DNA of 64,000 bases from assembly GCF_019931145.1 (NCBI RefSeq), contig NZ_JAIOUV010000008.1:1-64000 (forward strand). Reading direction: 5' to 3'. Below are positions 5,451 through 37,114 of the stretch, in pieces. Position 1 is the first letter of the stretch; each line of letters opens with the position of its first letter. The DNA comes from Marinicella meishanensis (GTDB lineage: Bacteria; Pseudomonadota; Gammaproteobacteria; Xanthomonadales; Marinicellaceae). Under the pieces are notes generated by a model, which saw only the letters and a program-made list of their open reading frames with translations, was not told the DNA's origin and made no database searches. The position numbers and the translations under genes are program-made.

Positions 5451-6518
5451 ATCACTGCACCTGTGGATGGCACCACCATCAATGATGCCACGCCACTGGT
5501 GGTGGGTACCGGGGAACCCGATGCCATCATCACGGTGACCGGCCCCAGTGGTGAAAGTTGTACCACCACGGTGGATGTCAGTGGCAATTGGTCATGCACC
5601 TTGAGCCCGGCATTGGCCGATGGCAGCAACCTGATCACCGCCATCGCCGCCGATGAAGCCGGTAATGAGTCCGGTACCGACAGCGTCACAGTCACCATCA
5701 TTGCTGGACAAGCTTATGATTTGTTGATCAATGCTCCGGCTGAGTTGGTCACCACCGAGATGGGCGGCACCGACACCTTTGAAGTGTCCTTGCCTCTGAC
5801 CCCAACGGCCAACGTGACAGTCAATTTTTCCAGCAGCGACTTGACTGAAGGTACGGTGGCTCCAGGCTCAGTGACGTTCACCCCGAGCAATTGGGACCAA
5901 CCCGTGACCATCACCGTCACCGGGGTGGATGATGTGGACTACGATTTGGATCAGAATTACCAGATCATCACCTCGGCCTTGTCATCCGGTGACAGCAACT
6001 ATGACGGGGTGAACCCAGTTGATCTGGATGCGGTGAACATCGATGACGATGAAAGCCCGAACTTGACGGCCTTCATCACCAACTGTGTGGCTGGTGTGCA
6101 ACCTGATGAAGCCATGTTGTATGAACTGTACATCACCAACACGGGTAACAAAGACATCGTGGGCGCCACCGTGACAACGGTGATGGGCAATCAAGTCAGC
6201 ACGCCCACATGGGTCTGTCAAGGTGTGAATTGTGATGCCACCAGCGGATCCAATGACATCAACCAGACTGTGGATTTACCGGTCGGGGCAGAAATCGTGT
6301 ATTTGATTGACACCAATGTGACCGGGCCATTGATGTCATTCATTGACGTGGAAGGCGCCGTGGCCATGCCAGTCAGTGAAACCGATGTCGACCCCAGTGA
6401 CAATGTGGCATTTGACAGTGATTTGATCTACCAATTCATCTTCAAAAACAGCTTCGAATGTGTGGCACCTGGTACCGTGCAATCAACCAAGGCGTTGTTT
6501 GACTCGTTGCAGAAGTAA
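1..6518 (+). CDS. Giant secreted repeat protein with Cys-containing and Ig-like repeats (5'-truncated by window)
   Basis: The reading frame is open from base 3, so the true start lies upstream. At least 2171 residues are visible. The protein is almost all tandem domains. About 15 copies of an 86-residue unit (258 bp) start with [AIV]-x-x-C-[TV]-V-x-P-[DN]-P-A and end with F-T-L-D-[ND]-T-P-P. Each unit carries several Cys, and two subtypes (PDPANNG and NPANDG) are interspersed. Bacterial Ig-like units lie between them (around 2520-3540 and 4060-4660), including two near-identical units with N-D-N-T-L-L-I-N-G-T-A. The last ~270 residues hold a Calx-beta-like segment ending in N-I-D-D-D, a DUF11-like segment (Y-I-T-N-T-G-N-K-D) and a C-terminal F-I-F-K-N-S-F-E tail followed by 24 residues. 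No enzymatic motif was seen. The likely role is a surface or secreted adhesin, which is an inference from architecture. A strong terminator follows at once. Confidence 0.85.
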   Translation, partial: CTGVETDATVTIPGYVCGAEAGNEVTCTATAGQNGVDGDEQATVTDAAGNASMANAFFTLDDTPPAAAVCVVSPNPANDGTALTATCTGVETGATVSIPNYVCGAEAGNQVICTATAGAGGVTGDETATTTDTAGNSATSNVPFTLDNTPPAVPVCTVTPDPANNGTALTATCTGVETGATLTIPGYVCGAEAGNAVICTATAGQNGVDGDEQATVTDQAGNASVADAFFTLDNTPPTAAVCVVSPNPANDGTALTATCTGVETGATVSIPNYVCGAEAGNQVICNATAGAGGVTGDETATTTDTAGNSATSNVPFTLDNTPPTIGTCTVTPDPANNGTVVTANCTGVEAGATLTIPGYVCSDGGGGNWSCTGTVGVSGVDGDETATATDAAGNTATTPANFTLDNTPPAVPVCTVSPDPANNGTALTATCTGVETGATLTIPGYVCGAETGNEVTCTATAGQNGVDGDEQATVTDDAGNTSVADAFFTLDNTPPAVPVCTVSPDPANNGTALTATCTGVETGATVTIPGYVCGAEAGNEVTCTATAGQNGVDGDEQATVTDAAGNASVADASFILDNTPPAAAVCVVSPNPANDGTALTATCTGVETGATVSIPNYVCGAEAGNQVTCTATAGAGGVTGDETATTTDTAGNSATSNVPFTLDNTPPAVPVCTVTPDPANNGTALTATCTGVESDAVVTIPGYVCGAESGNEVTCTATAGQNGVDGDEQATVTDQAGNASVADAFFTLDNTPPTIGTCTVTPDPANNGTALTATCTGVETDAVVTIPGYVCGAESGNQVICTATAGQNGVDGDETATATDAAGNTATTPAPFVLDNVAPPAPVINAPTNGDPVTGTGEPGATVTVTTPSGATCTAVVQLDGTWSCSLFPTPVDGEDITATQEDEAGNTSPPTTVVGGIDLTAPSAPVINPVVENTDPITGTAEPFTVINLTGVSCDNDPVITNASGVWTCVTSTSLPLTPGDLIVATATDAAGNVSQPASTTVGNSATQSVAPTVNPVPNGATEITGTAVPGSTIDVDGITCSNAPVTANASGDWICLSPNPVPVTDDIIMVTATQSGLLESPPVSTTVYDPGTTAPPAPQVNPTDGDPVSGTTIPNGDITVLDDLGNVLCTTTADAAGNFSCSPVFPLPAHNDVLSVIVTDSNGNSSLPTQVVVDSQAPTAPVCTVSPDPANTGTALTATCTGVETDATVTIPGYVCGAEAGNEVTCTATAGQNGVDGDEQATITDIVGNSNTADVFFTLDDTPPAVPVCTVVPDPASTGTALTATCTGVETDAVVTIPGYVCGAEAGNEVVCTATAGQNGVDGDEQATITDLAGNASNANVFFTLDDTPPVAGAITSISDDTGVSNTDFITNDNTLLINGTAEAGASVEVFVDGLSIGTTTADGSGNWTFDYTGTTLVDGDYDFSVVVTDGAGNVSPPSADQTVRIDTVAPTAASITSVSDDNGVSNNDFITNDNTLLINGTAESGATVEVFLDGLSIGTTTADGTGAWTFDYTGTVLANGDYVLTAGVTDAAGNAGPASAPQALTIDASAPAAPVCVVSPDPASTGTALTATCTGVETDAVVTIPGYVCGAESGNEVTCTATAGQNGVDGDEQATITDVAGNSNNADAFFTLDDTPPAAPVCVVTPNPANDGTALTATCTGVETDATVTIPNYVCGTESGNQVICTGTAGPGGVTGDETATITDLAGNNNTTIVAFTLDNTPPVAPVCIVSPNPANDGTALTATCTGVESNATVTIPNYVCGTEAGNQVICTGTAGPGGVTGDETATITDLAGNSNTTIAAFTLDNVAPATPIITAPVDGTTINDATPLVVGTGEPDAIITVTGPSGESCTTTVDVSGNWSCTLSPALADGSNLITAIAADEAGNESGTDSVTVTIIAGQAYDLLINAPAELVTTEMGGTDTFEVSLPLTPTANVTVNFSSSDLTEGTVAPGSVTFTPSNWDQPVTITVTGVDDVDYDLDQNYQIITSALSSGDSNYDGVNPVDLDAVNIDDDESPNLTAFITNCVAGVQPDEAMLYELYITNTGNKDIVGATVTTVMGNQVSTPTWVCQGVNCDATSGSNDINQTVDLPVGAEIVYLIDTNVTGPLMSFIDVEGAVAMPVSETDVDPSDNVAFDSDLIYQFIFKNSFECVAPGTVQSTKALFDSLQK

Positions 6519-6536
6519 GCTGTTTTGTGTCTGAAC

Positions 6537-6566
6537 AAGGCCGGTCATCTTGACCGGCCTTTTTTT
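6537..6566 (+). terminator. Rho-independent terminator of the giant repeat gene
   Basis: A 10-bp stem AAGGCCGGTC/GACCGGCCTT with a five-base loop is followed by seven T. It starts 18 bases after the stop codon of the repeat gene. Confidence 0.9.
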
Positions 6567-6614
6567 GTCAGAAAGGCAGTCAGCCGACTGCTCGATGGAT
6601 CTCAGGCAAATTGA

Positions 6615-7250
6615 TTAAGGAGCCAGGCGATCAATGCGCCATTCATCGCCATCCTGTTGATACAAGAAGCGGTCGTGTAAGCGATTGGCTCGGCCCTGCC
6701 AAAATTCATAACTGACTGGCTTGATGCGGTAGCCACCCCAAGCATCAGGCAAAGGAATGGTGCCGGCTTTGAATTTCTCTTTCATTTGTCGCAGCATGGT
6801 TTGCAACACCGAACGGCCTGAAATGACCTGGCTTTGTTCCGAAATCCAAGCCCCCAGTTGAGAACCCCGGGGTCGTGAGGTGAAGTATTTGAAAGACTCT
6901 TGTTTGGAAATTTTTTCCACCGGACCTGAAATCCGCACCTGGCGTTCCAAGTCATACCAGGGAAACAACACCGAGGCCTGTGGGTTGTCGGCCAATTCAT
7001 TGGCTTTGGCACTGCGGTAGTTGGTGAAAAACACGAAGCCTTGTTGATCAAAAATTTTCAACAGAACGGTCCGCACTTGTGGCATGCCATCAGGTCTGAC
7101 GGTGGCCAGGCACATGGCATTGACTTCTTTGATTTCAGCGGTCCTGGCTTGTTCAAACCACAGGGAAAATTGCGCCAAGGGGTCTCTCTTTAAGTCTTTT
7201 CTGCTGAGCCCCGATTGGGTGTATTCTTTTCTGATGGCACCGATGTCCAT
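6615..7250 (-). CDS. pdxH: Pyridoxamine 5'-phosphate oxidase
   Basis: An FMN-dependent cytosolic oxidase that converts pyridoxamine or pyridoxine 5'-phosphate to pyridoxal 5'-phosphate, the last step of vitamin B6 synthesis and salvage. At 211 aa it has the usual family length. Family features visible are the N-terminal D-P-[LF]-x-x-F-x-x-W-x-x-[EQ]-A segment, the FMN-binding R-T-V-L-L-K and F-F-T-N-Y-x-S-x-K stretches, S-R-P-x-x-S-x-x-G-A-W-x-S-x-Q-S and the C-terminal G-R-x-x-R-L-H-D-R-F. It is the last gene of a minus-strand run and starts one base after the stop of the GldG-like gene, so it is probably co-transcribed with the ABC genes. That pairing is not functionally obvious. Confidence 0.97.
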   Translation of the reverse strand: MDIGAIRKEYTQSGLSRKDLKRDPLAQFSLWFEQARTAEIKEVNAMCLATVRPDGMPQVRTVLLKIFDQQGFVFFTNYRSAKANELADNPQASVLFPWYDLERQVRISGPVEKISKQESFKYFTSRPRGSQLGAWISEQSQVISGRSVLQTMLRQMKEKFKAGTIPLPDAWGGYRIKPVSYEFWQGRANRLHDRFLYQQDGDEWRIDRLAP

Positions 7251-7251
7251 G

Positions 7252-8409
7252 TTAACCTCGTTTCAGTTTTCGCCAATGATACAACGCCAACAACAAAAAC
7301 AACAACGGCAAAACCAATAACATCAATGCCGCAAAGGACAACACCTCTTGCGGCGTCAGCAACAACTGGGTTTGGCCGTGCCCAATGCTGGGCAAATCGA
7401 TGCGGTCATCGTGTAACAACAACCAGTCCAACAAACGAAATGACATTTCCAGGTTGCCACCATCATACAGGTGTTCATCGCTCAAAAAATCAATGTCACC
7501 CACCACCAGCAAGCGGCTGTTGCCCAGCTGCCCGGTGGCCGCCAGGGTTTGGCCTTGTTCATTTTGCCAGAGGCTTTGGTTGGCCGTCTCAAAGGGCATG
7601 GCACCCACCAAATTCAGCGGCCGATCAAAGGCTTCGTTCAATGGATGGGCTGGAAAATGCTTGATCACCAGCGACCCTTGGTGGTAACCGTCGGTGGGCA
7701 TGACATCGAACATCAAAGCCAAATTGGGTTGGGCTTGGATGGTGGTGGGATCGGCCAGCCACAGCAAGCTGATGCCTTGATTGAATTGTTGTTCCAACCA
7801 TGTCACGGCGGTGTCATCCAGGGTCTGAGCGGGTGCCGGCAAAACCACCAATTGGGTTTGGGCAGGCAACTGTAAACTCGGGTTCCAGGACAACACGGCG
7901 GCTGGATAATTGGCCGCAGCCATGGCATTCAGCCACGCATTCAGGCTGCCAGCCTGACCCGGATTGAAGGACCGGCCGCCCACCTGATCCAACAGCACCA
8001 CCCATCGATCTTGGGGCTGATCCAGCTGTTTCAGGCCGTTGAAAAAAGCTTCATAAGACAAAGTCGACAGTTTGAAAGATTGATCGCCGTCGCGAATCAC
8101 CATTTCCCCTTGTTGGGTGATGTTGAGCTGTTGGACCCAGTCTTGGTGTTGGCTGGGATCCAGAAAATTCACTTCAACCCGGGGCAATACCGCCAGCAAT
8201 GGCTGCAAGAAATTTCCCACCAAACTGGCTGCAGCAGAATCCGGCAAGGCAAAAACATCAATGACCAACTCATCTTGTTGCGCCAATACTTGCTGGGCTG
8301 ACGGGGGGATCAAATCGGCGTATGCATGCTGCGGATGCCAATTGGGCAACCATCGGGCCGCGCCATAAACCAGTACCAACCACACCACCAGTACCCAATA
8401 GCGAATCAC
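7252..8409 (-). CDS. GldG-like auxiliary protein of an ABC transporter
   Basis: A 385-residue membrane-anchored protein. It has an N-terminal hydrophobic segment (Y-W-V-L-V-V-W-L-V-L-V-Y), a long extracytoplasmic domain of the ABC_transp_aux/DUF4350 type and a C-terminal transmembrane helix ending in R-K-L-K-R-G. It occupies the position of GldG in GldA-GldF-GldG exporters: ATPase, then permease, then this protein. I chose the GTG at 8409, which overlaps the permease stop as GTGA. A longer frame reaches upstream to 8520, but its first 37 residues lie inside the permease gene and look like shadow coding. The substrate is unknown. In non-gliding bacteria such systems have no settled function. 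Confidence 0.8.
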   Translation of the reverse strand: MIRYWVLVVWLVLVYGAARWLPNWHPQHAYADLIPPSAQQVLAQQDELVIDVFALPDSAAASLVGNFLQPLLAVLPRVEVNFLDPSQHQDWVQQLNITQQGEMVIRDGDQSFKLSTLSYEAFFNGLKQLDQPQDRWVVLLDQVGGRSFNPGQAGSLNAWLNAMAAANYPAAVLSWNPSLQLPAQTQLVVLPAPAQTLDDTAVTWLEQQFNQGISLLWLADPTTIQAQPNLALMFDVMPTDGYHQGSLVIKHFPAHPLNEAFDRPLNLVGAMPFETANQSLWQNEQGQTLAATGQLGNSRLLVVGDIDFLSDEHLYDGGNLEMSFRLLDWLLLHDDRIDLPSIGHGQTQLLLTPQEVLSFAALMLLVLPLLFLLLALYHWRKLKRG

Positions 8410-9152
8410 AACTGCCGCCTCAAGCGAGTGACTTGGTGGCCCGCCAACCACAGCAGCACCCAGCTGCCCAAGCCAAAATACAACACCGAACTCAAGCCCA
8501 CTTCGGCGGCCATGAACCACTGCAAATGATGGGCTGGTGACATCAGAACCAACCAGTTGATGCCATATTCATCGCCCACCCCGGGGCCACCCAATATCCA
8601 CAGCATCACAAACACCACCGCATTCAATAACACGGCAGTACCGGCTTGTTGACAATGGCTGGACAGCAACAAACCCAAGGCTGTGAACCAGCACAACAGC
8701 AACACCATGCCCAACACCCCACAAGCCACTTGTAACCAATCCACCGCGCCGCCCACCTGCAGCAATGCGGTCATCACCAGCACGTGCAACAAGACAAAAG
8801 CCAACACCCCAGATTGGGCTTTGAATTTATTCCAGATCAGGGCATGATCGCTGCTGCGGTTGATCAACAAGTACCACAGGGTTTGTTGCGATCGTTCTTT
8901 GGCGATGGCCAGACCGCTGGTATAAGCCACCAACAACAGACTCAATTTGACCACCATCAACATCATGGGCACCCACAGGTTTTGGGTGATGGTTGGTGGA
9001 TTGGGCAGTTGCACCAAGGCCGACTGTAAACTGTTGTAGCGGTCAATCATCTGCCAGCCCATCCAGGCCATCAAAAAGCTCAACACCGCCAGCATCAACC
9101 AAGTGCCTGGCGCGCGAAAAATCAGCTTGCGGTCCTTGCTGCTCGGATTCAC
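8406..9152 (-). CDS. ABC-2 type transporter permease (GldF-like)
   Basis: A 248-residue integral membrane protein with about six hydrophobic helices. The first is residues 14-34 (T-W-L-M-L-A-V-L-S-F-L-M-A-W-M-G-W), followed by a periplasmic loop, as is typical of ABC-2 permeases. Its start overlaps the ATPase gene by four bases (ATGA) and its end overlaps the GldG-like gene by four (GTGA), so the three are translationally coupled. It would form the membrane channel for the ATPase encoded just upstream. Confidence 0.85.
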   Translation of the reverse strand: MNPSSKDRKLIFRAPGTWLMLAVLSFLMAWMGWQMIDRYNSLQSALVQLPNPPTITQNLWVPMMLMVVKLSLLLVAYTSGLAIAKERSQQTLWYLLINRSSDHALIWNKFKAQSGVLAFVLLHVLVMTALLQVGGAVDWLQVACGVLGMVLLLCWFTALGLLLSSHCQQAGTAVLLNAVVFVMLWILGGPGVGDEYGINWLVLMSPAHHLQWFMAAEVGLSSVLYFGLGSWVLLWLAGHQVTRLRRQL

Positions 9153-9886
9153 CAGCCACCCCCCACTTGGGTTGGGGACTGATGGTCCACAGACACGGCA
9201 TGGAATTGTTGCATGACCCCTTGGTACAGTTCATTGAACGGTTGCTCTTGGTGGTAAGCTGCGGCATGCAACACGCGGCCCCGATGCATCACCACGACCC
9301 AATCGGCCATGGCTTCGGCTTCATGCATGATGTGGGTGGCCATCACCACCGTTTGCGCTTGACGCCAATTGGCCACCTGCTGTTTGAACAACATCATGAC
9401 CTCGGGGTCCATGCCATTCATCGGTTCATCCAGCAGCAGCAACCCGGCTTGAGACAGGGTCAATTGGGCCATGGACAAGCGTTGTCGAAAACCCAACGAC
9501 AGATGGGCCGTTAATTTGTTTGCCTCAGCCTGTAACTGCCAGGCACTGAGGACCTCATCGATCGAGGTGGTTGGGGTCATGGCAGATTGATCCGCCACGA
9601 ATTGCAACTGTTCAGTCACCGTCAAGTGTGGATAAAAAACCGCCGGTTCCGGCATCAAAAACGCCCCACCGGAATCACTCATTGAACCAGACCCAGAGTC
9701 GGGTTGACTGATGCCAGCCAACACCCGCAACAAAGAGGACTTGCCGGCACCATTGGCCCCCAGCAAAACCGTGATGCCAGGAGTCGGTAATTCCACCGTC
9801 ACATCATCCAAGATTTTTTGTCCAGAACGGGTCAAATTTATTTGTTTTAATTTCAACTGCTTGGAAAATTCAGTGGCTTTATCCAT
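9149..9886 (-). CDS. ABC transporter ATP-binding protein (GldA-like)
   Basis: A 245-residue ATPase subunit, first gene of the minus-strand set ATPase-permease-GldG-like-pdxH. The Walker A motif G-A-N-G-A-G-K-S-S is at residues 43-51. A variant signature L-S-L-G-F-R-Q-R-L, Walker B L-L-L-L-D-E-P, the D-loop and the switch His (A-T-H) are all visible. The signature has S-L-G-F-R-Q rather than S-G-G-Q, which is seen in the GldA/CcmA/DrrA-like subfamily of exporters. It sits divergently from the desaturase gene with 82 bases between them, so both promoters must lie there. Confidence 0.9.
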   Translation of the reverse strand: MDKATEFSKQLKLKQINLTRSGQKILDDVTVELPTPGITVLLGANGAGKSSLLRVLAGISQPDSGSGSMSDSGGAFLMPEPAVFYPHLTVTEQLQFVADQSAMTPTTSIDEVLSAWQLQAEANKLTAHLSLGFRQRLSMAQLTLSQAGLLLLDEPMNGMDPEVMMLFKQQVANWRQAQTVVMATHIMHEAEAMADWVVVMHRGRVLHAAAYHQEQPFNELYQGVMQQFHAVSVDHQSPTQVGGGW

Positions 9887-9968
9887 ACGTCAGGGTACGT
9901 GTTTTTCTCTGGCTATTGTCAATTGATTTCATTATAGTGAGCATTCCCGATAAAACAAACCTCTAATT

Positions 9969-11174
9969 ATGAATCAATTTTTGGCATTTCTGGAAACCGG
10001 TCTGTTGGATTTTTCAGCCTGGCAAATGGTGCTCTATACCTTCATTGTGGTGCAAGTCACGCTGTCAGGCGTCAGCTTGTATCTGCACCGGGAACAAACC
10101 CACCGTGGTATCCAAATGCACCCGGTGTTGCAACACTTCTACCGCTTCTGGCTGTGGTTCACCACCGGCATGTTGACCAAAGAATGGGTGGCCATTCACC
10201 GCAAGCACCATGCCTATTGCGAAACCGAAGATGACCCGCACAGCCCCCAAATTCACGGCATCAAAAAAGTGCTGTTCCATGGGGTCACGCTGTATACCCA
10301 AGAAAGGAAAGTGTCAGAGACCATGAGTAAATACGGTCAGGGCACACCCGATGATTGGATTGAACGCAACATCTACACCCGCTTTCATTACCTCGGCATC
10401 GTCTTGTTGGCCTTCACCAACATCGCCTTATTTGGGGTGATTGGCCTGTTGATTTATGCCATCCAAATGCTGTGGATTCCATTTTTCGCCGCCGGCGTGA
10501 TCAATGGCATTGGTCATTTCGTGGGCTACCGCAATTACCGCACCGATGATTCCTCACGCAACATCTACCGCTTCGCCTTTTTCATTTTCGGCGAAGAACT
10601 GCACAACAACCACCACGCCTTTCCCTCCTCATGTAAATTCGCCCACAAGAAAGGGGAACATGATTTGGGTTGGTATGTGATCAAAGGCCTGAACAAACTG
10701 GGCCTTTGTCAAATCAAAAAAGTGGTGCCCGATTTGTTTGTGGACGAACAACAAAAAGACATGGACGGTGAAACCGTTAAAGCCATCTTGACCCATAAAT
10801 TCAATGTCTTGCAGGTTTACATCAAAGACGTCATCAAACCGACCTTGACCGAAGAGTATCAAAATGCTTCCAAAGCCTTCAACAAACGGATCAAGAAGTT
10901 CACCCACAGCCTGTCGCTGGATCCCCAGTTCCTCAAAGCCGACATCAAAACCAAATGGAGTGCTTACTTCGAAGACAGCCAATCGCTGAACACTTTGTTG
11001 CAATACAAAAAGGATTTGCAGGCCATTTGGGACAACAACACCAAATCCGTGGAAGAGATGATTGCGGACTTCAAGGCCTGGTGCAGCCAAGCCGAGCAAA
11101 GTGGCAATCGCCTGTTGCAAGAATTTGCCGATACTTTGCGTCGTTACAAGTTACAGACCTTTGCTGCCCGTTGA
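9969..11174 (+). CDS. Membrane fatty acid (acyl-lipid/acyl-CoA) desaturase
   Basis: An integral membrane di-iron desaturase that introduces a cis double bond into fatty acyl chains to adjust membrane fluidity. The three His boxes are complete: H40-R-E-Q-T-H45, H77-R-K-H-H81 and H212-N-N-H-H216, set between hydrophobic helices in the expected topology. At 401 residues it has a charged, helical C-terminal extension of about 140 residues after the third box, longer than the minimal desaturase core but seen in gammaproteobacterial DesA-type enzymes. Regiospecificity cannot be read from the sequence. It appears to be a single-gene unit, ended by a bidirectional terminator shared with the convergent repeat-protein gene. 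Confidence 0.92.
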   Translation: MNQFLAFLETGLLDFSAWQMVLYTFIVVQVTLSGVSLYLHREQTHRGIQMHPVLQHFYRFWLWFTTGMLTKEWVAIHRKHHAYCETEDDPHSPQIHGIKKVLFHGVTLYTQERKVSETMSKYGQGTPDDWIERNIYTRFHYLGIVLLAFTNIALFGVIGLLIYAIQMLWIPFFAAGVINGIGHFVGYRNYRTDDSSRNIYRFAFFIFGEELHNNHHAFPSSCKFAHKKGEHDLGWYVIKGLNKLGLCQIKKVVPDLFVDEQQKDMDGETVKAILTHKFNVLQVYIKDVIKPTLTEEYQNASKAFNKRIKKFTHSLSLDPQFLKADIKTKWSAYFEDSQSLNTLLQYKKDLQAIWDNNTKSVEEMIADFKAWCSQAEQSGNRLLQEFADTLRRYKLQTFAAR

Positions 11175-11193
11175 AGGGATTGAATCAAGCATC

Positions 11194-11223: not shown

Positions 11224-11244
11224 GGGTTCATCAGAACGGGTTGA

Positions 11245-14200
11245 TCAGGGACAGTTCAAAGTTTCAAAATCATTTCTGAATACGTAATCCTGCACATTGA
11301 CCGTGAAGGTGTAGGTCACCGAAGTGTCGTCACCTCCGTTGGCCACGCCACCGTCATCTTGCAATGCCACCGTCACTTCAGCGGCCCCTGCATTACCAGA
11401 GATGACATAGACCAAATCGCCATTGTTGTCGACATCAATGCTGCTGAGTACCCCATTGGGATCACTTTGGATGTTGACAATCATGTCTCGCACCGCCTGA
11501 TCGGCGTCCTCATCATTGGGGCCAAAATCGAATTGACAGGCCAATGATTGAACCGGCGGGCTGCCCAGGTCTGCCAAGCGCAAGTAAACCACATCGTTGA
11601 TCACCATGCTGGGTTCATCGTTCACGGCATCGACTGTGATCGCGACCGCTGCTGAGTCGCTGCCGCCGTTGCCGTCACTGATGGCATAATCAAAGCCCCC
11701 GCTGCCATTGAAGTCAGCCGCTGGCGTGAATTCACAGTTGTTGCCGTTTTGCACCACCGTACCATTGCTGGCATTCGAGCACGAAGTCACACTCAAGGTG
11801 TCGCCCAGGTCTGGATCAGAATCGCCATTCAGCACCGCCACCGAGACCATGGTGTCCTCTGTGGTGTTGGCATTGTCATCAACAGCCACCGGATCGTCGT
11901 TCACCGGATCTACCGTTACGGTGACCGAGGCCGAATCGTTGCCACCGTTGCCGTCACTGATGGCGTAGTTGAAGCCACCGGTGCCATTGAAGTTCAAGGC
12001 GGGGGTGAACTCACAATTGTTACCGACCCGCACCACGGTGCCGTTACTGGCACCAGTACAAGCCGTCACACTCAAGGTGTCGCCGGCATCCGGATCGGAG
12101 TCACCAGTCAAGACGGCCACCGACACCAAGGTGTCTTCATTGGTCACAGCCGCATCATCCGCCGCCACTGGATCGTCGTTTACTGGGTCCACGGTGACCG
12201 TTACTGCAGCGCTGTCTGAGCCGCCGTTGCCGTCACTGATGGTGTAATTGAAACCGCCGGTGCCGTTGAAGTTCAAGGCCGGGGTGAACTCACAGTTGTT
12301 GCCAACCCGAACCACAGAGCCATTCGAGGCGCCAGAACAGGCCGTCACACTCAAGGTGTCACCGGGATCGATGTCACTGTCACCGGTCAACACCGCGACT
12401 GAGACCATGACGTCTTCGTCGGTGGTGGCCGCATCATCGACCGCCACCGGATCGTCGTTCACCGGATCAATGGTCACCGTGACCGAGGCCGAATCGTTGC
12501 CACCGTTGCCGTCACTGATGGCGTAGGTGAAGCCACCGGTGCCATTGAAGTTCAAGGCTGGGGTGTACTCACAATTGTTGCCGTTTTGCACCACCGAACC
12601 GTTCGAAGCGCCGGAACAAGAAGTCACACTCAGGGTGTCGCCGGCATCGACATCGCTGTCACCGGTCAACACCGCCACTGAGACCATGACGTCTTCGTCG
12701 GTGGTGGCCGCATCATCGACTGCCACCGGGTCGTCGTTCACCGGATCTACCGTTACGGTGACCGAGGCCGTGTCGCTGCCGCCATTGCCATCACTGATGG
12801 CGTAGTTGAAACCACCGGTGCCATTGAAGTTCAGAGCTGGGGTGAACTCACAGTTGTTGCCGTTTTGCACCACCGAACCGTTCGAAGCGCCGGAACAAGA
12901 AGTCACACTCAGGGTGTCGCCGGCATCGACATCGCTGTCTCCGGTCAACACCGCCACTGAGACCATCACGTCTTCATCGGTGGTGGCCGCGTCATCGACT
13001 GCCACCGGGTCGTCGTTCACCGGATCAACCGTTACGGTGACCGAGGCCGTGTCGCTGCCGCCGTTGCCGTCACTGATGGCGTAGTTGAAACCACCAGATC
13101 CATTGAAATTCAAGGCCGGGGTGAATTCACAGTTGTTGCCGTTTTGCACCACGGTGCCATTGGAGGCACCCGAACAAGAAGTCACACTCAGGGTGTCACC
13201 GGCGTCGGGATCTGAATCATTGGTCAGCACCGCCACCGACACCATCACGTCTTCGTCGGTGGTGGCGTTGTCATCCACCGCCACCGGGTCGGCATTGGCC
13301 TGACAAGTGACCGTGACTGCCACTGTGGCCGATGAACCGCCGTTGATGGTGTAGTTGAAATCATCGGTGGTCACCCCATCGTTACAATAGTCGGCATCCG
13401 GGGTGTAACTGACGTTGGCAGCGGTGAAGGTGGTGCTGCCATTGCTGGGTTGGGTCACTGCGGTGACTTCCAACAGCCCCCCATCCGGATCGGTGTCATT
13501 ATCGAGCACATCGATCACGTTGTTGCTGCTGTTCTCCAGCACGGTGTCGGCATCCGCCACCGCCGTGGGATCATCATCGATGCCATTGATGCCGATGTTG
13601 ACCGTGGCCAGGTTACATTTCACCGGGGTGCCATCATCACAAGCGTTGTAAGTGAATGAATCGGTCGGTGCTTCATCGCCATTGTGGCTGTAACTGAAGG
13701 TGCCGTTGGCATTCAAACTGAAGCTGCTGGCATCGGCTGGGCCTGAGACCAAGACCGCCACCAAGCTGTCGCTGGCGTCCGGATCGGAGTCGTTGTTCAA
13801 CACGGTGCCTGAGCCGCCATCCAATAATGTGGTGGTGGCCCCTTCATTGACCGTGATGCTGTCATTCACGGCGTTGGGATCCTGGTTACAAAACTCCCCA
13901 AATGCGGTTTCATACAGACCACTTTCGGTGGCCCCACCGGTGTTGGTCACGGCGTGTTTGTTGTAAACCCAAAAACACTCGTCATTGGGATCCACCGCCA
14001 CCGAAGTATAGTCACCCCAGCGGTTGGTACCGCCAAAAGCGCGGTGGTAAAAATCGGTGCCCACCCGAATCGCTTCAGAGGCCCGCATGGTGCCAGCGGC
14101 ATCACCCGGTGAACGCACCGAAAAATACGATCCGGGGAAGATGCTGGGTGAGGATGCCGAATAGCCCACACCGATGCCACCATCGGCGTTCACCGCAATG

Positions 14201-15621
14201 GATGGAAAAAAGGTGAAGGTACCGGCTGAAATGTCCTCGCCATCAATGATGCCGAAATCATCCAGGGCAATGGCACCGCCGTTGCCATCAAACACCCACC
14301 AGGATGCCGAGGTTTCACCCAGCTCGGTGTTGCTCTCAATGGTCGCCGTCGAGAATACTTGGCCATCACGCCACACCGCGTCCAAAGCGCGCGGATCGTT
14401 GGTTTCCAGGGTCAAGCCAGAACCTGACTGTGGCGCCGAAGGCAATGGGCCAACATTGGGCTCGATGTTCCCCACGCCTAAGAATTGTTGGGTGAAACTC
14501 ACCGCACCTAAGGGGTTGTCGACCCGCACGGTTTGCCAGAATTCATTGCCACCGGCGGCCAAGCGGGAATACGACATCAAATAAGTGCCCATGCCTGCTG
14601 GCGGGGTGCCATAGGTGTGTGCCGGTTGGGTGGTGGTGGCCACCCCGCCCCCACCATAAGGATCCAACGGGCCAATCACACTGACCGCACCGCCGCTGTA
14701 AAAACCGACTTTGTCGATCATCCACAAACGCACGCCACCATAGCCTCCGGCACCATAACCAAACATGTTACCGGTGATATAGACCACTTCTTCATCCACC
14801 GCAAAGCCAGGATAATCAAACCAACGATCGGCGCCACTGATGAACACTTCGCTGTCAAAGGCATGCATGAACCAGGCGCCATTCGGATCCGACGTGGCTG
14901 ACACCGCCACCAACACCCGTGAGGTGTCGTCTGGATCGCCATTTGCGGTGTCTTGCCGCTCCAGGGTGATCACCACAAAGCGGTCCTCATATTGGTCATA
15001 CAACACTTTCGGGTCAAAAGTGAAATTCACCGGCGAGACCGGCGCAAAAAAGGTTTCCAGTGAGCGGCTGCTGCCATTCGTGCCATCGGTGTCATAAAAC
15101 TCAATGGTGGTGTTGAACACATTGACCACCTGGTTGGGGCCAGCAGCCCCATGGGGATCGGCGGGGATGAAAATGAAACCACCGTTGTTAACAGAATTGG
15201 TCACCTGGCCACCGGCACTGATGGACGACACCAGGCTTTTGGTTTCAGGTTGTTCTTCAGGCCATGGTTGATCGACTTGAGCCAATTCTTCCGGGCTGAT
15301 TTTTTCATAGCGGAAGCCGCCTTTTCTGAACTTGGGCGTGGTGTCCATTTCCATGGTCAGTTGGCCTTGCAGCTCTGGGCTCAAAGTCTGGTAGCTGACC
15401 GGTGGTTGCACCATGCGCCCGGGCAAGGCAATGCCGTATTCGGTGCCACCTGGTAGTGGTTGGAAACTGGGTGGTATCTGGTCATCAGACAACACCCCAA
15501 CCTCCGGTTTGTTGGCGGCCTGCTGCTGTTGTTGATCGGTTTCGGCTTGTTCTTGGGTGGTCATCAAGCCCCAGGTGATGGCCAGCAGTAAACCGGCCAG
15601 TACAGTCATTTTTAATTTCAT
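11245..15621 (-). CDS. Secreted tandem-95 (cadherin-like) repeat protein with F-x-x-x-F-E tail
   Basis: 1458 residues. A signal peptide (M-K-L-K-M-T-V-L-A-G-L-L-L-A) precedes a Gln-rich linker. Residues of roughly 60-570 form a unique domain with no enzymatic motif I recognise; it may be a beta-propeller-like fold, which is a guess. Next come two or three divergent Ig/cadherin-like units and six near-identical 93-residue units beginning N-D-D-P-V-A-V-D-D, each with an S-x-C-S-x-A-S-N-G Cys and a second Cys in N-N-C-E. The final domain ends in Y-V-F-R-N-D-F-E followed by six residues. The C-terminal tail resembles those of the giant protein at the left edge and of the small protein at 36476-37114. 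A good ribosome site (GGGGAAGCA before ATG) supports the start. The likely role is a cell-surface or secreted matrix/adhesin protein. Confidence 0.85.
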   Translation of the reverse strand: MKLKMTVLAGLLLAITWGLMTTQEQAETDQQQQQAANKPEVGVLSDDQIPPSFQPLPGGTEYGIALPGRMVQPPVSYQTLSPELQGQLTMEMDTTPKFRKGGFRYEKISPEELAQVDQPWPEEQPETKSLVSSISAGGQVTNSVNNGGFIFIPADPHGAAGPNQVVNVFNTTIEFYDTDGTNGSSRSLETFFAPVSPVNFTFDPKVLYDQYEDRFVVITLERQDTANGDPDDTSRVLVAVSATSDPNGAWFMHAFDSEVFISGADRWFDYPGFAVDEEVVYITGNMFGYGAGGYGGVRLWMIDKVGFYSGGAVSVIGPLDPYGGGGVATTTQPAHTYGTPPAGMGTYLMSYSRLAAGGNEFWQTVRVDNPLGAVSFTQQFLGVGNIEPNVGPLPSAPQSGSGLTLETNDPRALDAVWRDGQVFSTATIESNTELGETSASWWVFDGNGGAIALDDFGIIDGEDISAGTFTFFPSIAVNADGGIGVGYSASSPSIFPGSYFSVRSPGDAAGTMRASEAIRVGTDFYHRAFGGTNRWGDYTSVAVDPNDECFWVYNKHAVTNTGGATESGLYETAFGEFCNQDPNAVNDSITVNEGATTTLLDGGSGTVLNNDSDPDASDSLVAVLVSGPADASSFSLNANGTFSYSHNGDEAPTDSFTYNACDDGTPVKCNLATVNIGINGIDDDPTAVADADTVLENSSNNVIDVLDNDTDPDGGLLEVTAVTQPSNGSTTFTAANVSYTPDADYCNDGVTTDDFNYTINGGSSATVAVTVTCQANADPVAVDDNATTDEDVMVSVAVLTNDSDPDAGDTLSVTSCSGASNGTVVQNGNNCEFTPALNFNGSGGFNYAISDGNGGSDTASVTVTVDPVNDDPVAVDDAATTDEDVMVSVAVLTGDSDVDAGDTLSVTSCSGASNGSVVQNGNNCEFTPALNFNGTGGFNYAISDGNGGSDTASVTVTVDPVNDDPVAVDDAATTDEDVMVSVAVLTGDSDVDAGDTLSVTSCSGASNGSVVQNGNNCEYTPALNFNGTGGFTYAISDGNGGNDSASVTVTIDPVNDDPVAVDDAATTDEDVMVSVAVLTGDSDIDPGDTLSVTACSGASNGSVVRVGNNCEFTPALNFNGTGGFNYTISDGNGGSDSAAVTVTVDPVNDDPVAADDAAVTNEDTLVSVAVLTGDSDPDAGDTLSVTACTGASNGTVVRVGNNCEFTPALNFNGTGGFNYAISDGNGGNDSASVTVTVDPVNDDPVAVDDNANTTEDTMVSVAVLNGDSDPDLGDTLSVTSCSNASNGTVVQNGNNCEFTPAADFNGSGGFDYAISDGNGGSDSAAVAITVDAVNDEPSMVINDVVYLRLADLGSPPVQSLACQFDFGPNDEDADQAVRDMIVNIQSDPNGVLSSIDVDNNGDLVYVISGNAGAAEVTVALQDDGGVANGGDDTSVTYTFTVNVQDYVFRNDFETLNCP
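11620..13294 (-). repeat. Six 279-bp in-frame coding repeats
   Basis: Six consecutive 93-codon units of the tandem-95/VCBS-like type. Equivalent positions are exactly 279 bp apart (for example 11969, 12248, 12527, 12806 and 13085). The inner units differ mostly at silent sites, which suggests expansion by unequal recombination. Confidence 0.9.
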
Positions 15622-15803: not shown

Positions 15804-15826
15804 TTCCAGCTCAATGTGACCGCTGC

Positions 15827-17740: not shown

Positions 17741-20590
17741 TTAAGGGAGCGGTTGGCCGGCTTTGTCCAACATCACCGGATCACCCAAGCCCATTTGTTT
17801 CACCCGTTCCAATTGGGTCTCGGCATCACCGACCACCAAGTAAATCATGTCTGGTTCATGCAAGTGGGTGTTGATCAAGGCATGGGCCTGCTCCAGGTCC
17901 ATGGCCGCCAACTGCGCTTGTTCCTGCTCCAGATAATCTGTCGGCCACTGGTAGCGGCTGAATTGGGTGACTTCTCCCAACAATTGACCCAGCGTTTCAA
18001 AACGGCGGGTGTTGCCTTTGCGCAGCAGATTTTGCGTGGTGGCCAAATCTTCCGCAGCAAAAGTAGCGGCATATTCACCGATCAACTGCTGCACGATTTG
18101 CAGGGATTCCAAGGTCACGTTGGTGCGCACTTGGGTGGCCGCCACAAATGCGCCCGGATAATGCTTCCTGGACTGAATGTATGAATAGGCCCCATAGGTG
18201 TAGCCCTTGTTGATGCGCAAAGTTTGGGTCAGGCGCGCACTGGAGCCGGTACCCAGGCGGTTGTTGACAATTTCCAACCGGTGAAAGTCTTCATGCATGG
18301 CATCAAGGGCCGTTTTACCCACCATCAGCACCGATTGCTTGGCCCCAGGGAAGTCAATGAAGAACAGGCGTTGAGGGTGGTCTTGTTCGGCCACGGTCAA
18401 ATCGGGCATGGTCACCGCTTGGCGCGACCATTGTCGATCCAATGCGGCCAGTGCCATGGTCACCTCAGCGGCTGAAACCGCGCCGGCCACATGGAATTGT
18501 GCGCCTTGGGCACTGAAGTGCTGTTGGTACCATTGGGTTACGTCAGCCAGTGAGATGCGCTGTACATTGGTTTGATCGCCGCCCAGAATCTGGCCGGCCA
18601 CGTGATCTTCACCATACAACAACTGCATGAACACCTCGTTGGCGATGGTGTTGGGGTTGCCTTTGCTGGATTCGATGCTGGCCAAACGGCGGGTTTTGAC
18701 CCGTTCAAAATCGGCCTCATCAAACCGCGGCTGCAACAACATCTCAGTCATCAAATCGATGGTGGCCGCAAAATTCCGGGCCAAAGAAGAACCCGACACG
18801 GTGATGCCGGTGTGGCTGGCGGTGACGCTGATGGAAGAACCCAACAGGCCAATGGCATCCTCCAACTCGGCCGGTGTTTTCAGTGCCGTGCCTTCATTCA
18901 ACATGGCGGCCAATAAGGCGGCAGTGCCCTGCTTGTCGCTGGCATCCAGGGCTTGACCGCCTTCAATGCGCAAGGAAAAATTGACCAACGGCACCTCGCG
19001 GTGTTCCACCCCATAGACGGCCATGCCTTGAGGGGTCTGAGCCTGCCAAATGGCCGGAGAGCGCATCACCGGTAATTCACCCAACGGTGGCTCCGAGCGA
19101 TCGTGTTGGGTCGGGGTTTTGACGTATTCGGCATTGGGGTCTTCCACGAATTCTTTTTCTTTGCCCTGGACGATGGCTTCTTCCACCACCGGCGCCTGGC
19201 TGGAACCATCCACGATCAAATCAGGCTGAGCTTTCGGCACAAAACTGGTCATGATGTGTGGGCGGTTTTTGATGTATTGTTCATAGACCCGCAGCACATC
19301 GGCTTGGGTCACGGCTTTGATGTTTTGGATGTCGGTCAAATAGTAATCGGGATCACCGGCAAATTCTTGGTACAAGCCCAGCTGGTAGGCTTTGTTCAGA
19401 ACACTGGAGATGCCGTTGTAAAAATTGGTTTCCTGGCGGGCTTTGATTTTGGTCAGGGCCTGCGCACGAATGCCCTCTGTCTCAAACTTGTCCAAGGCGG
19501 TTTGTATGGCCAGTTTTACGGCATCCAAATCCACCCCCGCATTGGCCCTGACCCGGATGGTGAAGGTGCCGGCCAATTCTTCTGAACTGTTGTAGGCCGC
19601 CACATTGGAAGACAGTTTTTCTCCTTCCACCAAGGTGGTGAACAACGGCGACTGCTTGCCATAAGACAGGATTTCACCCAAGGCATCCAAGGCATAGGCA
19701 TCCGGGTGGTATTGTTCCACCGTGGGGAACGTCAATCTGAGTTCAGGCAATTGGGCAAAGTTGTCCAGGTGATATAAATTTTTGCTTTCACGCAGTGTCA
19801 CGGGCATGGGCGCCATGTCTGGCACAGCCGGACCGGCCTTGATTTCACCAAACCAACGCTTGACCGATGCTTTGGTGGCTTCGATGTCGATGTCACCGGC
19901 AATCACCAAAGTGGCATTGGCCGGGGTGTAATAGCGGTCATAAAACTCCCTGACATCCGCCAGGGTGGCATTCTGCAAGTCTTCCAAATCACCGATCACG
20001 GTCCAATTGTAGGGATGTTCCTCCGGGTACAAGGCTTTCTTGATCACGTGCGATGTGTGACCATAAGGGCGGTTGTCCACCCGCTGTCTTTTCTCATTTT
20101 TCACCACCTGTTTTTCCCGTTCCAGGGTGGCTTCTTTGACTGTGTTGATCATGTAGCCAAAACGGTCTGAATCGATCCACATCAGCTTTTCAAAAGCGTC
20201 TTTGGGCACCACCTCGTAATAGATCGTGCCGTCACTCCAGGTGCCACCATTGCGGGTTCCGCCCAACTCTGGGATCATTTTGCGGTTGGCCCCCATCGGC
20301 ACATTCTCAGAATCATTGAACGACATGTGCTCAAAAAAGTGGGCAAAACCGGTGCGGCCTTTTTTCTCACGGCTGGAACCCACATGCACAATGGTGGAAA
20401 AGGCCACGATTGGGTCAGAGGTGTCTTGGTGCAAAATCACCGTTAAGCCGTTATCCAGCACCATGGTTTCGTGCTTGATTTCGACCAATGGCGGCGTCGA
20501 ATCGGCCGTGACCGGTGGCTTTGGCTGACCCGTGGGGCCACAGGCCACCAACAGCAGTAAGGTCAACAGAGAAAAGGCTTGTTTGATCAT
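17741..20590 (-). CDS. M16 family (pitrilysin/insulinase-like) zinc protease lipoprotein
   Basis: 949 residues in two M16 halves. The lipobox L-V-A-C ends at Cys17, so it is predicted to be lipid-anchored in the envelope. The inverted zinc motif is H84-F-F-E87-H88, with the distal Glu region E-K-Q-V-V-K-N-E about 75 residues later. The N-terminal half is catalytic. The C-terminal half (from about residue 520) has the M16_C fold but no zinc motif. I start at ATG 20590, which has GGAG eight bases upstream and begins the lipoprotein signal; a frame extending 25 codons further upstream lacks a signal. It probably degrades peptides in the periplasm. Confidence 0.92.
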   Translation of the reverse strand: MIKQAFSLLTLLLLVACGPTGQPKPPVTADSTPPLVEIKHETMVLDNGLTVILHQDTSDPIVAFSTIVHVGSSREKKGRTGFAHFFEHMSFNDSENVPMGANRKMIPELGGTRNGGTWSDGTIYYEVVPKDAFEKLMWIDSDRFGYMINTVKEATLEREKQVVKNEKRQRVDNRPYGHTSHVIKKALYPEEHPYNWTVIGDLEDLQNATLADVREFYDRYYTPANATLVIAGDIDIEATKASVKRWFGEIKAGPAVPDMAPMPVTLRESKNLYHLDNFAQLPELRLTFPTVEQYHPDAYALDALGEILSYGKQSPLFTTLVEGEKLSSNVAAYNSSEELAGTFTIRVRANAGVDLDAVKLAIQTALDKFETEGIRAQALTKIKARQETNFYNGISSVLNKAYQLGLYQEFAGDPDYYLTDIQNIKAVTQADVLRVYEQYIKNRPHIMTSFVPKAQPDLIVDGSSQAPVVEEAIVQGKEKEFVEDPNAEYVKTPTQHDRSEPPLGELPVMRSPAIWQAQTPQGMAVYGVEHREVPLVNFSLRIEGGQALDASDKQGTAALLAAMLNEGTALKTPAELEDAIGLLGSSISVTASHTGITVSGSSLARNFAATIDLMTEMLLQPRFDEADFERVKTRRLASIESSKGNPNTIANEVFMQLLYGEDHVAGQILGGDQTNVQRISLADVTQWYQQHFSAQGAQFHVAGAVSAAEVTMALAALDRQWSRQAVTMPDLTVAEQDHPQRLFFIDFPGAKQSVLMVGKTALDAMHEDFHRLEIVNNRLGTGSSARLTQTLRINKGYTYGAYSYIQSRKHYPGAFVAATQVRTNVTLESLQIVQQLIGEYAATFAAEDLATTQNLLRKGNTRRFETLGQLLGEVTQFSRYQWPTDYLEQEQAQLAAMDLEQAHALINTHLHEPDMIYLVVGDAETQLERVKQMGLGDPVMLDKAGQPLP

Positions 20591-20705
20591 TTTGGGTGCT
20601 CCAATGAGGTTCAGGGGTTCAAAGCAACCATGATAACGGGCATGGCTGCCGGTGGCATGGCACAAAAGTCATGAACGACCGTTGTGTCGCGGGTGCTTAC
20701 CCGCC

Positions 20706-25805: not shown

Positions 25806-25815
25806 GCTCGTGGTG

Positions 25816-35147: not shown

Positions 35148-35159
35148 ATCGGGCTTTTT
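35132..35159. terminator. Terminator of the lol-comEC operon
   Basis: AGCCCGA/TCGGGCT stem with a five-base loop, flanked by six A and five T. The comEC stop codon is in the loop. The OmpA-family gene converges on it from the right. Confidence 0.85.
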
Positions 35160-35181
35160 CAGGTTCATGGTCAACCGTGAA

Positions 35182-36297
35182 TCAGTCTTGGATGACCAAC
35201 TCAGTGCGGCGGTTCTTGGCCCGGCCTTCTTCGGTGTCATTGGTCGCAATCGGACTCAATTCACCATAGCCTTTCCAAGTCATGCGCTCTGCCGCCACGC
35301 CTTTGTCGACCAAGTAGTTATACACCACTTTGGCCCGGCGCTCGGACAGTTTCTGATTGTATGCTTCCGAAGCGGTTGAGTCGGTGTGACCAGCCACTTC
35401 AACCACGATGGTGCCGTGTTCACCCATGGTTTTGACCGCGGCATCCAAAATCGCGATCGACTCAGGACGCAAAGTCGCTTTGTCGACATCGAAATGCACC
35501 CCTTGCAGCTCAATCACCACCTGCACTTCACAACCATTTTCGTCCACGGTGGCACCGGCACGGGTGTTGGGGCATTGGTCTTTGGAGTTCATCACGCCAT
35601 CGTTGTCGTCATCACCGTCATGGCAGCCATACGCATCCACAGCCATCCCTGCTGGGGTGTCGGGACACCGGTCATTTTGGTCACTGACACCATCACCATC
35701 CGAGTCCAACTGCGGCGCTGGCTCAACCAGCGGCTCGGCTGCAGGGGCTTCGGAGGCGGCACCCAAGGCGATGTTCAGGCCCATGCTGAACAGGTAGTCA
35801 TCATAGCTGCTGTTGGTTCCAACATAATCATCGGTATCCAGACGGTATTTGACTTCGGTGATGAAACCCACGCGATCGGTGATGCTTTTGCGCAAACCAG
35901 CACTCAGGTTCAACATCAAGTCAGAAGAGTCCACGCCACGGGCGGCACCACTGCCGTTGTGGTCCAGGTAGCCGGCACCCATGCCCAGAAAGGGGCGCAT
36001 GCTGCCAGGCTCACTGAAGTGGTAGCGGGCCATCAGACCCAGGCCGGTTTGGTCCACCGAACCACCGGTGTCTTCAGCGTCGAAACTGCTGCTGTCCAAT
36101 TCAAAATCAAGTGACCAATTCTCATTCAAGAACTTGCCCAGACCCAAACCCAAACCGAAGTTGGACTCCAGGTTTTTGGCGCTGTCAGTGGCGGTGAAAA
36201 TCAAACTGGGTGACAACATCCAGCGGTCATCATAATCATTGGCCAAGGCCGCCCCTGCCACAAAAGACATGGACACAGCCAAAAGTTTCTTTTTCAT
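35182..36297 (-). CDS. OmpA-family outer-membrane protein with thrombospondin type-3 repeats
   Basis: 371 residues. A signal peptide ends at A-L-A-N. An eight-strand beta-barrel-like region covers about residues 20-185. An Ala/Pro/Glu-rich linker and two Ca-binding type-3 repeats (D-S-D-G-D-G-V-S-D-Q-N-D-R-C-P-D-T and D-G-D-D-D-N-D-G-V) follow. The C-terminal OmpA peptidoglycan-binding domain has H-F-D-V-D-K-A-T-L-R-P and A-G-H-T-D-S-T-A-S-E-A-Y-N-Q-K-L-S-E-R-R-A. It anchors the outer membrane to the wall. AGGAG precedes the ATG, and an extended -10 promoter lies 34-42 bases upstream. Confidence 0.95.
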   Translation of the reverse strand: MKKKLLAVSMSFVAGAALANDYDDRWMLSPSLIFTATDSAKNLESNFGLGLGLGKFLNENWSLDFELDSSSFDAEDTGGSVDQTGLGLMARYHFSEPGSMRPFLGMGAGYLDHNGSGAARGVDSSDLMLNLSAGLRKSITDRVGFITEVKYRLDTDDYVGTNSSYDDYLFSMGLNIALGAASEAPAAEPLVEPAPQLDSDGDGVSDQNDRCPDTPAGMAVDAYGCHDGDDDNDGVMNSKDQCPNTRAGATVDENGCEVQVVIELQGVHFDVDKATLRPESIAILDAAVKTMGEHGTIVVEVAGHTDSTASEAYNQKLSERRAKVVYNYLVDKGVAAERMTWKGYGELSPIATNDTEEGRAKNRRTELVIQD

Positions 36298-36331
36298 TGT
36301 TTCTCTCCTAACGAAATGAATTCAAAGCGAA

Positions 36332-36340
36332 ATTATAGCA
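36332..36340 (-). promoter_or_regulatory. Extended -10 promoter of the OmpA-family gene
   Basis: Minus-strand TGCTATAAT, a perfect -10 hexamer with the TGn extension. The -35 is weak. Confidence 0.65.
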
Positions 36341-36475
36341 CACCGCTGATCCCTGAAAAGCGTCTGCAACGGTGTTTTACATTTCATTTAATTCCGCATC
36401 TTGCCAAGCAAAAATGACTGAATCATGACATTCTGATGACCAATTATGATGCCTTGTCTGCTGGCCGCTTTAGGC

Positions 36476-37114
36476 TCAGTCCAATGGCTCAAAATCACTG
36501 GCAAAAATCACATCATCATCGAAGAAATAGATGGCATTGAAATTGGCCAATATGTCTTCAGTGATGCCAGAACCGCGGGTGATTCGCATACCCATTAGAT
36601 TCAAATTGCTGCGATCAATCTGAAATGCCGCCAGATCAAACACATGGATACCAAAGGTGTCGATGACTGTGTTTTGAGTTTCTTGGGTCCCGCTGGTTTT
36701 GTCTCTTAAAGTGAGTGTCACCGATATCGGATTGGTGACCAAACCCATGTCCAATACCAGTGCTTCGTAGGCTGAAGCATCAAAAGAACCCAACCAAAAA
36801 GTGAAATCATCGTGATCACTCCAGTGGACTGAAACACTTTGGTTGGTGACCATGCCATCGATTTCAAAGGCCACCGACAAGGTACCACCAGCAACAGCTG
36901 CACTGGTGTCAACCGCAGGTCCACTGCTCACACCACCATCCACATTCAAGCGGCGAAAATCAGCCACCCCACCAGGGACATTCAGTGCGGTCCAAGATTC
37001 AACCGAACCTGATACACCTGATTGTTCGATCAACAAGGCTTGATCATCACCAAAATCATCCATCTCCTGAGCGGTTGACGCGCCCATCCACAGTATCCAC
37101 ACATATTTCCACAT
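36476..37114 (-). CDS. Small secreted protein with C-terminal F-x-x-x-F-E tail, function unknown
   Basis: 212 residues from the ATG at 37114, which has GGAG seven bases upstream; an ATG two codons earlier is too close to that site. A signal peptide (M-W-K-Y-V-W-I-L-W-M-G-A-S-T-A) is followed by a beta-rich domain with no recognised motif: a jelly-roll-like stretch A-F-E-I-D-G-M-V-T-N-Q-S-V-S-V-H-W. The C-terminus is V-I-F-A-S-D-F-E-P-L-D, the same tail type as in the two long repeat proteins. No operon partner is evident; the next upstream gene on this strand is far away. Confidence 0.7.
   Translation of the reverse strand: MWKYVWILWMGASTAQEMDDFGDDQALLIEQSGVSGSVESWTALNVPGGVADFRRLNVDGGVSSGPAVDTSAAVAGGTLSVAFEIDGMVTNQSVSVHWSDHDDFTFWLGSFDASAYEALVLDMGLVTNPISVTLTLRDKTSGTQETQNTVIDTFGIHVFDLAAFQIDRSNLNLMGMRITRGSGITEDILANFNAIYFFDDDVIFASDFEPLD

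Follow-up and report, generated by a model that had tools for sequence, protein, structure and literature searches.

Short terminal peptides are a known kind of targeting signal. In PEP-CTERM/exosortase, GlyGly-CTERM/rhombosortase and MYXO-CTERM/myxosortase, a short C-terminal suffix is carried by many unrelated Sec-exported proteins per genome, choice-of-anchor families among them, and is co-distributed with one machine. For the type II secretion system (T2SS), the available excerpts of three papers describe cargo selection as open, with no conserved or linear signal known (PMC9251779, PMC12369372, PMC11981180). As far as these and one further excerpt go, PelI has an exposed loop of nine residues that serves as a secretion signal and interacts with GspC and GspD (PMC7949064), one substrate carries its information in an Ig fold and depends on the PDZ domain of EpsC (PMC12369372), and XpsC has no PDZ domain (PMC11981180). 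Here we describe a nine-residue peptide, the tag, which resembles the CTERM suffixes in all the respects listed above. It was noticed in a 64,000-nucleotide stretch of Marinicella meishanensis DNA (contig NZ_JAIOUV010000008.1, positions 1 to 64,000, forward strand; hereafter the window). Going by sequence comparison, we lean slightly towards the view that it is a sorting tag recognised by a second T2SS, called class B below, with docking on GspC/GspD. A peptide found on dozens of cargoes and tracking one of two T2SSs would be a transplantable candidate signal, and a single motif search would pick out, in an environmental bacterial order, many secreted proteins whose function is unknown.

The first-pass annotation of the window had pointed to an F-x-x-x-F-E ending on three otherwise unrelated secreted proteins, and all three tails were found at the places it gave. 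The first belongs to a giant Ig-like repeat protein with Big_13/Big_6 repeats (12..6518, plus strand), whose 5' end lies beyond the window. Its tag copy IFKNSFE (6438..6458, plus strand) stands near the C-terminus, 19 residues before the stop, in the context YQFIFKNSFE, and lacks the D that most copies have. The second is a tandem-95/cadherin-like repeat protein (11245..15621, minus strand) with a signal-peptide-like start and matches to tand_rpt_95 and Big_9; it ends in VQDYVFRNDFE plus five residues, the copy DYVFRNDFE occupying 11263..11289 on the minus strand. The third is a 214-aa protein of no known family (36476..37120, minus strand) with a short signal-peptide-like start, which ends in DDDVIFASDFE plus three residues (copy DVIFASDFE, 36488..36514, minus strand). 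This protein had no match in Pfam or NCBIfam and no relatives among the collected loci, and a plasmid search with it as the query returned no match. The end of the giant repeat protein (6438-6518) is related to that of a second giant protein from the same genome (L070:535-6567), and both go on past the tag with FEC-x-APG, about 20 residues in all.

We then counted the motif in the genome to which the window belongs (G000; 3.99 Mb, 15 contigs). At the DNA level, the pattern [ILVFM]-F-x-[NDSG]-x-F-E gave 77 matches vs 8 for a reversed-pattern control. Fixing the stop after FE while letting the three middle residues vary gave 50 matches vs 8 in the control, and adding the D left 37 vs 0. The matches are not chance, and the genome scan suggested by the first-pass annotation did return the excess it had looked for. 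The surroundings of all 77 matches were inspected. A listing of C-terminal matches comprised 58 rows, from which four implausible genes (antisense or very short) and a further three with more than 21 residues after FE were removed. Of the 51 proteins that remained, 48 belong to the 77 matches. The remaining 29 matches are mostly antisense or off-frame, and two are N-terminal copies. As part of the stop-anchored matches (the 50-match pattern) was not fetched, the genome has at least 51 tagged proteins. A short tail common to otherwise unrelated secreted proteins is therefore a feature of the whole genome, as proposed from three examples.

The consensus reads D-[LVI]-[IL]-F-x-[DN]-[GDS]-F-E, so that the core seen at first is confirmed within a longer motif of nine residues, usually with a leading D. 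The D stands two positions ahead of the searched motif in 45 of the 51 proteins and I is the first motif residue in 45 of 51, although the pattern demanded neither. FE is the very end of the protein in 30/51, and the other 21 run past it (0-21 residues across the 51). In a profile of 245 tails from the collected loci, in which several motif positions are set by the search patterns themselves, each position more than three residues upstream of the motif core carries less than 0.5 bit, and the 22 residues upstream of the motif show little conservation. The DNA encodings of the tag vary while the protein motif stays. At E up to 10, neither NCBIfam nor Pfam offered a tail model for any of 20 tails of 30 aa, which agrees with the proposal that the tail lies outside any known domain. 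The tail profile returned three PDB chains at E 0.39-0.66, which is chance level. A structure prediction for a tagged choice-of-anchor Q protein was unusable (mean pLDDT 51, last 56 residues below 50).

No transmembrane helix and no basic cluster follow the motif, with 0-21 residues after FE, exactly as the three window proteins had suggested. The tag is therefore not a PEP-CTERM-type signal, and it differs from PEP-CTERM, GlyGly-CTERM and MYXO-CTERM further in occurring also near the mature N-terminus and in having a T2SS as the co-distributed partner found. GlyGly-CTERM is likewise reported on T2SS cargo, but has the helix that is absent from the tag, according to the parts available of three papers (PMC13393428, PMC12369372, PMC3237569). 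The genome-wide, suffix-like use of the tag on unrelated proteins also recalls LPXTG, PEP-CTERM and GlyGly-CTERM as described in the available part of one paper (PMC3237569), and a protease or transpeptidase might cut at or beside the motif in the manner of sortases, exosortases or rhombosortase. We regard such a processing signal as improbable: where the protein ends at E, as in 30/51, a helix or basic cluster is impossible, and copies right after a signal peptide make little sense as a C-terminal cleavage tag.

These copies qualify the claim of a strictly C-terminal tail, which holds for most tagged proteins. A search for N-terminal tags gave nine rows, of which seven were kept and two rejected (L003, antisense; L372, a cytoplasmic-type enzyme), and L327 was added separately. 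In the resulting eight proteins (L053, L073, L096, L100, L106, L182, L327 and L331) the motif stands shortly after the signal peptide; L053 and L073 come from the window's own genome, and L331 from a genome without class B. A position behind the signal peptide is unexpected for a C-terminal cleavage signal or a free-carboxylate ligand. Signal peptides are absent from type I substrates, and a classical PDZ ligand depends on a free hydrophobic C-terminus. Type I signals and PDZ ligands resemble the tag in being short C-terminal peptides, but most tag carriers do have signal peptides, and the 21/51 proteins with residues after FE, together with the N-terminal copies, set the tag apart from carboxylate-dependent PDZ ligands. 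Tandem copies occur as well: the sequence DLIFKNGFESDIIFKDGFE stands at one protein end in L126, and a second pair was found in L175. In the genome G089, four pairs of tag matches lie 27-33 bp apart on C33, C44 and C55, as judged from coordinates only.

By eye, most of the 51 carriers have a Sec-type signal peptide. Three are undecided or have none (L049, which adjoins a contig end, L010 and L019), and the start of three others lies outside the fetched stretch (L004:7-333, L070 and the window's first protein). A crude, permissive signal detector was positive in 27/33 tagged open reading frames (ORFs) of at least 250 aa, compared with 65/156 other ORFs from the same stretches, which are not curated genes (p=3e-5); among the six tagged ORFs that it missed, several show an evident signal peptide further in. 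The domains ahead of the tag are mutually unrelated. A family scan of 48 tag proteins (E up to 0.001, first 25 families shown) found choice-of-anchor Q in at least five, choice-of-anchor I in at least two, choice-of-anchor J in at least one, tandem-95 in at least two and an ExeM-like nuclease in at least one. Other carriers include endonuclease I, zinc carboxypeptidase, M64 peptidase, glucose/sorbosone dehydrogenase, plastocyanin and LRR proteins, among others.

This list bears on a second explanation, in which the peptide would be a retention tag, binding the secreted protein to a receptor or polymer at the surface; the link to class B would arise since the cargoes need that T2SS first. Relatives of choice-of-anchor families elsewhere carry surface-anchoring tags, as the NCBI family naming indicates, and the choice-of-anchor Q, I and J matches among the tag proteins would suit such a role, as tandem copies would suit avidity. 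However, the tagged proteins also include small enzymes, for example endonuclease I and a plastocyanin-like protein, and no receptor candidate turned up, no search for one having been made. We consider retention unlikely, though the foremost of the alternatives.

Endonuclease I shows best how the tag relates to the protein that carries it, because this compact enzyme has a recognisable end, NPFIDHPEW. We examined 70 of the copies found. Where the end is visible, endonuclease I is tagged in 31/41 cases from genomes with class B, counting variants such as IFANGFQ, FDGPD or FGD, and untagged in 10, compared with 0/15 tagged in genomes without class B. For 14 further copies (nine without and five with class B) the end lies outside the fetched stretch. 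Five genomes of the family f11 (G011, G021, G030, G045 and G052) have two endonuclease I paralogues each, one tagged and one untagged. The enzyme is thus tagged in many tag-using genomes and untagged in Xanthomonas-like relatives. The tag is attached to complete enzymes, and is an appendage separable from the folded domain rather than part of the fold.

The same comparison speaks to whether the peptide has a function at all. It could be a spreading DNA element or a relic jelly-roll strand hitch-hiking onto gene ends, and an extended copy in L046, DGFESGDTTAW, presumably resembles the start of choice-of-anchor J-like domains. Nevertheless, the protein motif is kept while the DNA encodings differ, the copies sit at gene ends or just after signal peptides, and the orthologous endonucleases of genomes without class B are untagged where the end is visible. 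A functionless element is hence very improbable.

To see which machine accompanies the tag, we looked for GspD in 42 genomes, of which 21 are tag-rich and 21 lack a strict match (a match to the pattern with D). All 21 tag-rich genomes have a GspD above the cut-off, so that two marks of T2SS substrates, a Sec-type signal peptide in most carriers and a T2SS in the genome, are found together. In a tree of 60 GspD proteins, two well-separated clades appear. Class A has 36 rows, half of them (18) from tag-rich and half (18) from zero-tag genomes, and is Xps-like; the best matches of the class A operon in G000 are XpsF and XpsH, both below their cut-offs, and XpsM, above it. Class B has 24 rows, 19 of them from tag-rich and five from zero-tag genomes, and its GspD appears Out/Eps-like by our reading. 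Seven f2 genomes (G023, G040, G047, G060, G077, G082 and G127) have a further GspD that scores between the classes (E 1e-141 to 1e-171); it is Xcs-like by our reading, was not counted as class B, and occurs where there are no strict tag matches.

The class B locus of G000 (L266:8618-15697) comprises gspC, gspD, gspE and gspF and adjoins ftsE and ftsX. Its GspC matches T2SSC (62.8 bits) and PDZ (31.0 bits, cut-off 23.2), both above the Pfam cut-off, while the NCBIfam GspC model stays below its own; the PDZ domain was examined in G000 alone. Both gspE and gspF score above the NCBIfam cut-off. The genes gspC, gspD and gspE lie together in 14/14 further loci (L397-L410), with gspF and ftsE alongside in eight. 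As a T2SS marker, PF03934 (T2SSK) was rejected as unspecific: it also matched in Bacillus and Lactococcus controls, and its two matches in G000 are frames of 89 aa and 779 aa, which, by our reading, look like ComEA and DNA ligase.

Across 151 genomes of the order, the strict pattern is present in 86, and a class B profile in 83, three fragments included. With at least two strict matches counted as presence of the tag, both are found in 70 genomes, the tag only in five, class B only in 13, and neither in 63 (p=4e-23). Corrections changed these numbers to 75, 4, 9 and 63 (p=2e-27); both p-values ignore kinship. One correction concerns G114, where class B gspC and gspD were found at a contig edge (L411). 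The others come from a looser, stop-anchored pattern without D, which gave 27, 15, 25 and 19 matches in G030, G033, G038 and G052, compared with 0, 0, 1 and 1 in the controls. These genomes were tag-free by the strict pattern since it missed their D-less tags, and 21 of 22 inspected copies look genuine. The looser search covered 13 genomes, seven with and six without class B, and the corrected table is lopsided accordingly; the six without class B gave 0, 0, 0, 0, 2 and 2 matches and no convincing tag gene. Three class B genomes have no strict match (G085, G123 and G125; uncorrected), with 0, 1 and 1 loose matches. Six more have one strict match each (G011, G055, G063, G067, G078 and G140); that of G067 is internal, and G011 and G063 also carry tagged endonucleases.

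The association also holds within several families. In f12 (24 genomes), the four class B genomes have at least two strict matches and the 20 without class B fall short; in f2, the single class B genome is the sole one of 25 with tag matches; and in f1, G019, the sole genome without strict matches, has no GspD match at all. In f8 the link is weak, the tag being found in 2/4 genomes with class B and 3/21 without. The class A secretin does not track the tag, its rows being equally divided between tag-rich and zero-tag genomes. Phylogenetic profiling for a co-occurring machine, which the first-pass annotation had suggested with a protease or sortase in mind, has thus pointed to a T2SS, class B, among the searches made (GspD, GspK and endonuclease I).

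In the mechanism we propose, the peptide would be a portable linear sorting tag on Sec-exported proteins, placed at an exposed end that is almost always the C-terminus and now and then the mature N-terminus. The protein would first lose its signal peptide and fold in the periplasm; its tag would then be recognised by class B, a lineage-specific second T2SS with a PDZ-bearing GspC and an Out/Eps-like GspD, which would move the folded tagged cargo across the outer membrane. The docking site may be formed by GspC/GspD of class B. We infer the sorting role, the reader and the docking site from the distribution and position of the tag. From the sorting, anchoring or processing signal first suspected, what stands is a short portable tail on secreted proteins, which may serve in sorting and is not of the PEP-CTERM type.

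Second-step signals on folded periplasmic proteins are known from the loops of PelI and Pel3 (read by OutC/OutD) and the Ig fold of VesB (dependent on the EpsC PDZ), which are close analogues of the tag. In the excerpts available, a 9-residue exposed region of PelI can serve as a signal, with GspC and GspD involved (PMC7949064, PMC12369372). The determinants of PelI, Pel3 and VesB are structural and substrate-specific, in contrast to the tag, which is one motif common to tens of unrelated cargoes. The T9SS C-terminal domain is also a C-terminal second signal on Sec-exported proteins, for export across the outer membrane and without a membrane helix. In Bacteroidota, however, T9SS signals form folded domains of some 80 residues, unlike the tag, which has nine conserved residues and is preceded by 22 that are poorly conserved. 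Should the T2SS reading hold, the tag would to our knowledge be the first linear signal for a T2SS. That it is indeed the first short, linear and portable one, used at either mature end and read by a dedicated second T2SS in Lysobacterales while the Xps system ignores it, we put forward tentatively, as a claim somewhat less likely to hold than to fail. We found no description of the tag in Pfam or NCBIfam, or among the papers listed by searches of the open-licence PMC literature, in which motif strings were swamped by unrelated words.

Several observations weigh against recognition by class B. Concerning the endonucleases, 14 of the 15 untagged copies from genomes without class B belong to one family, f2, and G087, the sole class B genome of f2, also has an untagged endonuclease I. 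The genes gspG-M of class B were not found, nor did pseudopilin genes turn up beside its cluster. Tags occur without class B in five genomes, the first four of which have two or more strict matches: G093 (98% complete; four copies at the C-terminus), G062 (97%; three at the C-terminus and one at the N-terminus), G048 (90%, 180 contigs; six copies), G118 (88%, 400 contigs; one at the C-terminus, another undecided) and G088 (96%; one copy). A secretin search in all five returned class A and weaker PilQ-like matches only. The class A GspD tree shows only five changes in the presence of class B, and in random pairings the tag changes in step three to four times and in the opposite sense about zero times, which is not significant alone. 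With so few independent events, shared ancestry could explain much of the association. As to the literature, one review, in the excerpt available, regards linear T2SS signals as excluded (PMC9251779), and PDZ-bearing Out/Eps-type systems exist in Vibrio and Dickeya, according to an excerpt of another paper (PMC11981180). Together with the lack of C-terminal tags outside the order in our phylum sample, the latter means that the tag does not follow from the presence of such a system. Out/Eps-type systems elsewhere apparently work untagged, so recognition, if real, would be a lineage invention.

The association between tag and class B is therefore consistent but correlative, and based on few independent evolutionary events. 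These few events would equally suit a docking motif for a periplasmic chaperone, a quality-control factor or another partner that is co-inherited with class B and lies outside it. Since only GspD, GspK and endonuclease I were searched as families, the data do not set class B apart from other genes that were lost along with it. On the other hand, no candidate partner is in hand, and type II secretion is the usual exit for folded Sec-exported proteins. We judge this partner hypothesis about as improbable as processing, or slightly more so.

Taxonomically, the 17 genomes of the window's genus have 15-79 strict matches each, with controls near zero. With a still stricter pattern, 5/397 genomes of a phylum sample match, three of which belong to the order (12 sampled). 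The two outside it, G472 and G509, were rejected, as their matches lie inside the protein and are followed by a further 360 and 94 residues, and C-terminal copies in this form were found in 0/385 sampled Pseudomonadota genomes outside the order. The first-pass suggestion of similar endings in other Gammaproteobacteria is accordingly borne out for relatives, where the tag is widespread, but in this sample not beyond the order, and the tag is not general in Gammaproteobacteria. A scan of named genomes gave at least 118 stretches, largely from Marinicella, Lysobacterales metagenome-assembled genomes (MAGs), Dokdonella, Rudaea and Pseudofulvimonas. Among the matches listed are several MAGs titled Alcanivoracaceae, Planctomycetales and Bacillota, placed by title alone. 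These titles leave confinement of the tag to its order unproved.

Two neighbours of the tagged genes in the window may be mentioned. A 401-aa ORF at 9969-11174 (plus strand) has an odd pairing of a fatty acid desaturase domain (17-220) with an ISL3 transposase domain (285-396). Matches to M36 models were not relied on, those of the window protein concerned lying far below the cut-off. At 17741-20665 (minus strand), on the same strand as the tandem-95 gene, a 974-aa protein contains two M16 peptidase and two M16 C-terminal stretches.

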